From Vibrio sp. SCSIO 43136 (lineage in GTDB: Bacteria > Pseudomonadota > Gammaproteobacteria > Enterobacterales > Vibrionaceae), in assembly GCF_023716565.1 (NCBI RefSeq), contig NZ_CP071848.1:248001-312000 (forward strand): DNA of 64,000 nt. Reading direction: 5' to 3'. The notes under the pieces were generated by a model that was not told the DNA's origin, searched no databases, and worked only from the letters and a program-made list of their open reading frames with translations. The translations under genes were made by a program, and so were the position numbers. Below are positions 39,020 through 41,372 of the stretch, one piece after another; position 1 is the first letter of the stretch; every line of letters starts with the position of its first letter.

Positions 39020-40204
39020 GTGTCTAAAGAAAAATTTGAACGTACTAAACCGCACGTTAACGTTGGTACTATCGGCCACGTTGACCACGGTAAAACAACT
39101 CTAACTGCTGCAATCTGTACTACTCTAGCTAAAGTGTACGGCGGTGAAGCGAAAGACTTCGCATCTATCGATAACGCTCCAGAAGAGCGTGAGCGCGGTA
39201 TCACAATCGCAACTTCTCACGTTGAGTACGACACTCCAACTCGTCACTACGCACACGTAGACTGCCCAGGACACGCCGATTACGTTAAAAACATGATCAC
39301 TGGTGCTGCGCAAATGGACGGTGGTATCCTAGTAGTAGCTGCGACTGACGGCCCAATGCCTCAGACTCGTGAGCACATCCTACTTGGCCGTCAGGTTGGT
39401 ATCCCATACATCATCGTATTCATGAACAAATGTGACATGGTTGACGATGAAGAACTACTAGAACTAGTAGAAATGGAAGTTCGTGAACTTCTTTCTGAGT
39501 ACGAATTCCCAGGCGACGACCTACCAGTAATCCAAGGTTCTGCTCTTGGTGCACTAAACGGCGAAAAACAATGGGAAGACAAGATCGTTGAGCTAGCTGA
39601 AGCTCTAGATTCTTACATCCCAGAGCCAGAGCGTGCTGTAGACCAGCCGTTCCTAATGCCAATCGAAGACGTATTCTCGATCCAAGGTCGTGGTACTGTT
39701 GTAACTGGTCGTATCGAGCGCGGTATCCTAACTGTAGGTGACGAAGTAGAAATCGTAGGTATCAAAGAGACTACAACTACTACTTGTACTGGTGTTGAGA
39801 TGTTCCGTAAGCTTCTTGACGAAGGTCGTGCTGGTGAGAACGTTGGTGCACTTCTACGTGGTACTAAGCGTGACGAAGTTGAGCGTGGTCAAGTTCTTGC
39901 AGCTCCTGGCTCAATCAACCCACACACTAAGTTCGAGTCTGAAGTATACGTACTTTCTAAAGACGAAGGCGGCCGTCACACTCCTTTCTTCAAAGGCTAC
40001 CGTCCACAGTTCTACTTCCGTACTACGGACGTAACTGGTGACATCCAGCTTCCAGAAGGCGTTGAAATGGTAATGCCAGGTGATAACGTTCAAATGACTG
40101 TTACACTAATCGCTCCAATCGCTATGGACGAAGGCCTACGTTTCGCTATCCGTGAAGGTGGCCGTACTGTAGGTGCTGGTGTTGTTGCTAAGATCTTCGA
40201 CTAA
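39020..40204 (+). CDS. tuf: Elongation factor Tu
   Basis: GTPase that delivers aminoacyl-tRNA to the ribosome. 394 aa from GTG 39020 with AGGAAGGAACAC upstream. G1 [10 protein letters not shown] (18-27), G2 [13 protein letters not shown]3 DCPGHADY, G4 NKCDMVD. The codon usage is very strongly biased. The 119-bp leader contains CGTTATT/AATAACG and CGCCTCG/CGGGGCG hairpin-forming sequences. This is the str-operon copy; vibrios usually have a second tuf elsewhere. Confidence 0.98.
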
Positions 40205-40500
40205 TATTTAGTTGAATCTTGCACGCTTCTTCGTAAGAAGAACACGCATCTGAAAAAGGGGAGCTTCGGCTCTCCTTTTTTGATCTCGACAGTCGGCCAA
40301 CGGACGCTTCGCTTACGGTAATCGGCGAAAGTTGTTGACTGAACATCATTAATACATAGAATCCCGTTTCCCGTTTCCCGTTTCCCGTTTCCCGTTTCCC
40401 GTTTCCCGTTTCCCGTTTCCCGTTTCCCGTTTCCCGTTTCCCGTTTCCCGTTTCCCGTTTCCCGTTTCCCGTTTCCCGTTTCCCGTTTCCCGTTTCCCAT
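40201..40500 (-). other. Speculative ORF reading through the tandem repeat
   Basis: ATG at 40500 (minus) is 8 nt after AAGGAGG (40509-40515), a near-perfect ribosome-binding site, and opens a 99-codon frame: about 46 residues of repeated ETGNGKR and a unique tail ([20 protein letters not shown]...). All three frames of the repeat are open, so a change in copy number would switch the tail. The tail is antisense to the tuf terminator and has no recognisable domain. More likely chance than a gene. Confidence 0.12.
40254..40281 (+). terminator. Rho-independent terminator of the str operon
   Basis: AAAAAGGGGAGC, loop TTCG, GCTCTCCTTTTTT. A smaller hairpin, CTTCTT-CGT-AAGAAG, precedes it at 40226-40240. 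Confidence 0.9.
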
Positions 40501-40506
40501 TTCCCA
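40363..40506. repeat. 7-bp tandem repeat, CCCGTTT x19 plus variant CCCATTT
   Basis: Nineteen perfect copies of CCCGTTT run from 40363 to 40495, then one CCCATTT (40496-40502) and a terminal CCCA. On the minus strand the unit is AAACGGG, giving GGG tracts every 7 nt. It lies in the 399-bp tuf-bfd gap, 80 bp after the tuf terminator and 100 bp before bfd. The near-perfect identity of the copies implies recent expansion and probable length variation by slippage. The rest of the gap holds the tuf terminator and the bfd promoter region. Confidence 0.97.
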
Positions 40507-40551
40507 GCCCTCCTTATAACCAACCATTCTAAAATTTACAAAACTGTAACT

Positions 40552-40603: not shown

Positions 40604-40801
40604 ATGATTGTTTGTGTATGTCACCGTGTATCAGATAAATTGATTCGCCAGATGGTGACAGAGAAAGGTTTTTCAAGTGTACGTGCTATTCGAGAAGTTA
40701 CTCCTCTTGGCTCTCAATGTGGCAAATGCGTACCGATGGCCAAAGCCATCATCAATGAAACCAACGACAAACTCTCCGCTCAATACCAACAAGCTGGATA
40801 A
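40604..40801 (+). CDS. bfd: Bacterioferritin-associated ferredoxin
   Basis: [2Fe-2S] protein that docks on bacterioferritin and reduces its iron for release. 65 aa. Cluster ligands: Cys4-x-Cys6 and Cys39-x2-Cys42 (MIVCVCHRV and GSQCGKCVP). AAGGAG precedes ATG 40604. It is 94 bp upstream of bfr, with two hairpins in between. Confidence 0.95.
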   Translation: MIVCVCHRVSDKLIRQMVTEKGFSSVRAIREVTPLGSQCGKCVPMAKAIINETNDKLSAQYQQAG

Positions 40802-40895: not shown

Positions 40896-41372
40896 ATGAA
40901 AGGCGATCCAAAAATCATAGAACATCTCAATATCATATTGGGCAACGAACTTGTTGCGATTAACCAATACTTCCTTCACGCCCGCATGTACAAAGATTGG
41001 GGGCTCAAACACCTCGCCGATAAGGAATATCACGAATCCATCGATGAGATGAAACACGCTGACCACCTTATTGAACGTATTCTTTTTCTGGAAGGGCTCC
41101 CTAATTTGCAAGATCTAGGCAAATTGATGATAGGGGAAGACACCAAAGAAATGCTCGAATGCGACCTCAAGTTAGAGATGGCGGCTATTCCTGATCTTCA
41201 AGAGGCAATTGCTTACGCAGAAAGCATACGAGACTACGTTTCTCGCGACTTGTTCCAAGATATTCTAGAAGATGAAGAAGAGCATGTAGATTGGCTGGAA
41301 ACTCAGCTTGGTCTTATCGAGCTTACTGGCATCGAAAATTATCTTCAAGCACAGTTTGTCGATGAAGAGTAG
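40896..41372 (+). CDS. bfr: Bacterioferritin
   Basis: 24-mer iron storage protein with ferroxidase sites and inter-subunit haem. 158 aa. Met52 (DEMKHAD) is the haem ligand; ferroxidase residues are Glu18, Glu51, His54, a central Glu of the [11 protein letters not shown] helix, and Glu/His of [10 protein letters not shown]. Partner of bfd upstream. Confidence 0.96.

Follow-up and report, generated by a model that had tools for sequence, protein, structure and literature searches.

A perfect heptad array between tuf and bfd

The window, by which we mean the whole 64,000-nucleotide stretch of Vibrio sp. SCSIO 43136 DNA that was analysed, carries a long tandem repeat in the gap between tuf and bfd, the latter followed by a bacterioferritin-like gene that we take, from gene order, to be bfr (Table 1). 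An earlier note on this DNA had counted 19 perfect CCCGTTT units and then one CCCATTT, and both direct reading and Tandem Repeats Finder agree; the program gives the array a score of 281, with 20.6 copies and 99% matches, and the remaining four rows that it reports in the window score 42-69. About 100 bases separate the end of the array from the start of bfd. The same note had called the surroundings an otherwise ordinary intergenic region, which is wrong: the tuf–bfd gap also contains a repeated G-rich module and a promoter-like signal. Upstream of these lies a hairpin with a T run that we read by eye as the tuf terminator; a similar hairpin is visible by eye 3′ of tuf in relatives, and a consensus scan listed no terminator at this position.

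Table 1. Coordinates of the features at the tuf–bfd locus (numbered along the window) and of facing arrays elsewhere.
Feature	Position	Strand	Basis
tuf (EF-Tu), gene upstream of the array	39020..40204	+	Pfam GTP_EFTU domains
tuf terminator hairpin with T run	40253..40281	+	Read by eye; predicted fold
Left G-rich module, GGACGCTTCGCTTACGG core at 40302-40318	40290..40330	+	Profile E 6.9e-4; copy of the 52-locus family
Promoter-like TTGACT-N16-TAGAAT	40335..40362	+	10/12 consensus matches; ends 1 base before the array
Heptad array, 19 x CCCGTTT	40363..40495	+	Direct read, Tandem Repeats Finder
Degenerate edge, CCCATTT (40496-40502) and CCCA (40503-40506)	40496..40506	+	Direct read
bfd, downstream gene	40604..40801	+	Pfam Fer2_BFD
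Bacterioferritin-like gene	40896..41372	+	Pfam Ferritin
Facing GGGAAAC/CCCGTTT arrays (Lysobacter, Hydrogenophilus MAG)	L097:1353-1483, L024:7214-7378, L081:5180-5339, L026:1429-1573		

The minus strand of the array is a GGGAAAC repeat that is quadruplex-capable by motif, with 20 G3 tracts, and the predicted energy of this strand over 40205-40525 goes from -68.6 to -99.7 kcal/mol once quadruplexes are allowed. The capacity of the array to form quadruplexes is predicted only, from such modelling and by analogy with the CD data that exist for GGGNATC repeats in the available part of PMC4692102. A further suggestion, that length changes in steps of seven would matter by shifting a reading frame, finds no support, as the array is intergenic and its unit is stop-free in all frames on both strands.

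Distribution and length variation of heptad arrays

The genome to which the window belongs consists of two contigs of 3.17 and 1.81 Mb. Within it the 21-base word (CCCGTTT)3 is present 94 times, spread over 15 places, versus 0 times for the reversed word, so the array is not a product of chance, and runs of three or more units at 15 places do not support its first description as a single curiosity. The earlier note had proposed a search for (CCCGTTT)n across this and other Vibrio genomes; the word is present in seven of 148 Vibrio genomes (drawn from a larger group), this one included, and the other six have 2 to 11 matches each versus 94 here, all six being, to judge from their contig numbers, drafts, which can collapse arrays. 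Sister units, among them CCCGCTT, ACCGTTT and TTCAACCC, occupy further loci of the same genome among the matches listed for a looser word and by Tandem Repeats Finder. Across the stretches that we fetched, this program reports 39 arrays of at least four units with a period of 7-8, which is no census because most of these stretches were picked by repeat patterns; two arrays of at least six units (C1 2844114 and C2 624247) lie in the 33 12-kb stretches that were fetched to compute GC skew. Exact CCCRTTT counts in 16 rows, from loci selected for three or more units, are 3 in six rows, 4 in one and 5 in three, followed by 7, 11, 14, 18, 20 and 20, and these counts show no preference for four units.

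Whole-unit length differences exist between species. In G128, G020 and G063, three further Vibrio genomes, an orthologous array with aligned flanks counts 8, 7 and 4 whole units, respectively, so the earlier expectation that copy number varies holds in this form, between species and at a locus other than the window array. A second pair (L221 and L050) has 6 and 9 units, L050 starting at its contig end. At the tuf–bfd gap itself, no array was seen by eye in any of the 20 relatives with a readable gap (of 29 fetched, recognized by a tuf C-terminus pattern), and the 21-base word has 0 occurrences in those genomes; the window array therefore looks like a gain of this lineage. A heptad array at C1 431 kb is interrupted by a 1,251-bp insertion sequence (L011:2399-3649), IS3-like by eye, with CGT on both sides.

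Several Vibrio relatives (within L187-L215) have, by eye, a stretch after the tuf terminator that is bounded by GGTTATAA...TTATAACC-like ends, and the window retains the right end of that stretch, TTATAACCAACC, from about 40514, again by eye. Compared with plasmid records, the tuf region matches 28, all of other genera, at 60-90% identity and, where features are named, over tuf, fusA and ribosomal genes; a C2 query has no match among plasmid records.

A wider survey of bacteria from many phyla gave, among the matches listed, 127 arrays in 119 loci, 70 of them within long ORFs. For the other 57 listed arrays the nearest gene end is a stop with the G-rich strand in sense in 22 and with the C-rich strand in sense in 11, and a start in 14 and 10, respectively. 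As a general rule across bacteria, a preference for a gene end and strand is a weak tendency only. A Lysobacter genome and a Hydrogenophilus MAG contain GGGAAAC and CCCGTTT arrays in facing pairs, separated by about 90-125 bases (Table 1), and a Gallionella MAG has 17 GGGAAAC units between convergent ORFs (L060:4480).

A G-rich module and a promoter-like signal adjoin the arrays

Just upstream of the arrays lies a module with the consensus GGACGC-n-GCTAACGG, which we also call the GGACGCTTCGCTAACGG module. The word GGACGC-n-GCTWACGG occurs 48 times in this genome versus 1 for the reversed control; in 147 other Vibrio genomes it occurs at most 4 times in any, with up to 7 for the reversed control, both strands summed. 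A profile built from 34 copies finds at least 65 matches at E 0.1 or better in this genome when the best 150 of 1188 first-look candidates are scored, and these merge into 52 loci (for example L256-L285), every one of them on chromosome 1 (p 6e-11 relative to length). Under stricter filters, with the best 41 candidates scored per listed genome, the profile has no match at E 0.001 in the 147 other Vibrio genomes and 37 in this one, though it is blind to relatives with other words, and by eye other Vibrio arrays show different G-rich words at this place.

The 52 loci thin out from origin to terminus (13, 14, 9, 7, 6, 1, 1 and 1 over eight equal distance bins), with 1 locus versus 16 expected in 0.86-1.84 Mb, a bias that relies on origins set by GC skew and that terminators or convergent gaps may themselves share. 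Where the module lies on one strand only, 30 copies run with the fork and 13 against it (p 0.014). Rfam searches of 20 loci placed rRNA operons upstream of the module at L151, L153, L179 and L254, tRNA genes at L020 and L164, and CsrB at L152, where the left module directly follows the CsrB RNA gene (L152:1997-2313). At L254:4115-12001 two rRNA operons stand close together, and the 5S/tRNA end of one is followed by an element with 12.8 TTCAACCC-type units. The earlier question of whether arrays sit near terminators has a partial answer: many copies lie after a terminator, as judged by eye.

Array-bearing copies of the module mostly have TTGAC-N16-nAnnnT adjoining the first unit. A scan of the window region returned 2 promoter-like sites versus a shuffle mean of 1.4, so the window site alone is not above chance and the case for a promoter rests on the family. 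There, a sigma-70-like -35/-10 pair at proper spacing is above chance. Of 34 C-rich arrays scanned in 60-base windows, 11 have TTGAC 27-34 bases upstream of their start (p 2e-6), and in an unbiased scan of 5-mers before arrays of at least five units it ranks first with 11 of 26, the next word having 5. In 13 elements (14 were found, and one in a long ORF was set aside) the best -10 match gives a spacer of 16 in 10, of 15 in 2 and of 17 in 1, and none of 5000 shuffles attained their mean -10 score; because L151 and L254 are near copies the 13 count as about 12, and as the elements share some ancestry the counts are not fully independent. Among 43 module matches to a looser word, 9 have both signal and array, 1 the signal only, 4 the array only and 29 neither (Fisher p 1.1e-5), the sole signal-only copy (L159) having two full units plus partial ones. 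Three of the longest arrays (C2 333308, 463729 and 504320) have no TTGAC within 60 bases upstream and no module match, four arrays of other Vibrio with TTGAC show no -10 at spacers of 15-18, and two further arrays of other Vibrio (L217 and L219) have no TTGAC by eye. That arrays stand just behind this signal may reflect common descent, transcription-linked growth or a function of the transcript.

The last of these could mean that the signal is a working promoter and that its product, a (CCCGUUU)n RNA, serves as the leader of a co-directed gene, here bfd, or as an antisense transcript into a convergent gene, with array length tuning the effect. The motif is kept even though the spacers differ, it directly adjoins the array, 9 of 10 signal-bearing modules have an array of at least four units, and the 10 of 43 modules with the signal compare with a background expectation of 0.015 per module. 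Against this, several copies have a poor -10 hexamer, some arrays have no signal, and relatives lack array and signal at tuf–bfd while the region before bfd, by eye, is apparently kept. We regard this reading, made from sequence patterns, as possible but doubtful, and the earlier proposal that the array switches tuf or bfd-bfr is unsupported.

Arrays favour convergent gaps, and long arrays one replication strand

Convergent gaps contain 20 of the 39 arrays, yet in the sampled stretches they make up 13.7% of the intergenic sequence (33 of 167 gaps; p 2.6e-8), a count that uses simple ORF calls and so misreads rRNA and tRNA neighbours. All 12 of the 12 arrays with a stop codon no more than 15 bases away have their G-rich strand in sense. 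The window array falls outside this group and has no convergent neighbour; it follows a second rule, which concerns replication. Among arrays of at least six units, the C-rich strand is the nascent leading strand, the G-rich strand thus being the leading-strand template, in 17 of 19 (p 7e-4), and among those of at least nine units in 14 of 15; for all arrays of at least four units the bias is just 23 of 34 (p 0.06), five with equal G and C excluded. These thresholds were picked after the data were seen, and origins were placed by GC skew. Both exceptions at six or more units come after a stop codon and have their G-rich strand in sense, so the replication rule and the stop-codon rule are partly confounded.

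One could combine the module, the signal and the strand bias as follows: the module would be a chromosome-1-specific signal of this lineage, its 52 sites being addresses read by a DNA-binding protein; a subset with a promoter would start transcription inside the heptad array; and growth would be fed both by replication and by transcription of a leading-strand template that forms quadruplexes, so that array length would be a log of encounters between fork and transcription. We consider this unlikely.

Two other proposals concern the element as a structure. In the first, the array would be one arm of an RNA hairpin, acting as a terminator or 3′-end shield, that pairs with the left G-rich module in the manner of REP/BIME elements. 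At some loci the left words and the array show complementarity (over 12 bases at L178 and 11 at L011), several copies are inverted repeats by eye, and the excess of arrays in convergent gaps would fit, yet arrays match their own upstream 170 bases over a mean of 5.79 versus 5.87 when partners are swapped (in 1147 of 2000 swaps the mean is at least as high as observed), and the window copy matches over 5 bases only; such pairing is quite improbable. With this negative swap test, the array as a specific hairpin arm, as in a BIME, is rejected.

The second proposal, that a mobile non-autonomous unit such as a MITE or REPIN carried the array along, draws on the 52 dispersed loci in one genome and none by profile in 147 others. 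It sits poorly with the divergence of copies outside the core, with a strict limit to chromosome 1 that would be odd for a transposon, and with the lack of a Y1/RAYT transposase domain in this genome, and we give it equally little weight. A REP/RAYT system was also rejected: PF01797 has 0 matches in this genome, and the control search was positive in 5 of 14 genomes. Finally, perfect repeats invite suspicion of an assembly or polishing artefact, which is extremely improbable given a two-contig genome, 15 such loci with unique flanks, and CCCGTTT arrays in other Vibrio assemblies that are orthologous at one place in three genomes.

A repeat that probably grew by slippage within an intergenic element

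The reading that we prefer, with a probability of roughly 0.6, is that the array is a slippage-grown, quadruplex-capable heptameric repeat in a lineage-specific intergenic element, that quadruplexes helped its growth, and that it has no part in switching tuf or bfd-bfr. The element would follow a gene end and consist, in order, of the GGACGC-n-GCTAACGG module, TTGAC-N16-nAnnnT and the C-rich repeat, with the first repeat unit touching or nearly touching the -10-like hexamer. At the downstream end of this element, a heptameric simple sequence repeat probably grew by replication slippage. Slippage of a perfect seven-base repeat would account for the flawless interior units, for lengths that differ by whole units and for the single degenerate edge; it is the likeliest origin, and the earlier note had also named it.

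To judge from the strand bias of the long arrays, growth is favoured when GGGAAAC is the leading-strand template, probably because it folds into quadruplexes. For tuf and bfd-bfr the array probably has no switching role; at most, transcripts from a weak additional promoter would begin with its bases.

Long heptad arrays, though known, lack an explanation. The genome studied here holds dozens of them, differing in units, lengths and orientations, together with a promoter-like signal at a near-constant distance and a strand bias, which makes the competing causes of growth (leading-strand quadruplexes, transcription start and gene ends) separable with simple reporter and passage assays. The heptad loci may also serve as strain markers.

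Relation to known repeat systems

The extragenic palindromes REP/BIME and REPIN are dispersed, G-rich, and found at gene ends and between convergent genes. The Vibrio element resembles them in being dispersed and G-rich and in its place at gene ends and in convergent gaps; it differs in that the genome is without a RAYT domain and in that an array matches its own arm no better than others.

Among tandem repeats in Vibrio, the VNTRs of Vibrio parahaemolyticus gain and lose six-base units, mostly by single steps, in serial culture (PMC3265528). The present arrays share the tandem organization; in the part of that paper available, however, the units are 6 bp and change within a species, whereas those described here are of seven bases and the differences seen are between species. 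TAACTGA heptamer repeats occur in Beggiatoaceae, Cyanobacteria and Bacteroidetes in up to 43 copies (available text of PMC4679880). Like the Vibrio arrays they are intergenic heptad direct repeats with a patchy distribution across species; unlike them they are not G-rich and, in the BOGUAY genome, lie mostly just upstream of start codons (same excerpt of PMC4679880); the Vibrio arrays are mostly at gene ends.

A literature search for GGGAAAC and Vibrio returned, among the matches listed, no title on repeats, and a search for Vibrio intergenic repeat families led only to a paper on the heptameric quadruplex-forming repeats GGGNATC and GGGGA(C/T)T of Xanthomonas and Nostoc (Rehm et al. 2015, PMC4692102), which contains 0 occurrences of GGGAAAC or of the word Vibrio. 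The Vibrio array is akin to these repeats as a tandem heptad with a G3 tract and a four-tract quadruplex motif. Its unit, GGGAAAC, does not fit the GGGNATC consensus, and the Vibrio arrays lack the four-unit preference that sets the published repeats apart from them in the portion available (PMC4692102). They also come with a module restricted to their lineage and with a promoter-like signal, neither of which the same portion of PMC4692102 mentions for its repeats. As a G-rich heptad repeat, the family is remarkable for its number in one Vibrio lineage, for the promoter-like signal that adjoins it and for a module confined to chromosome 1.
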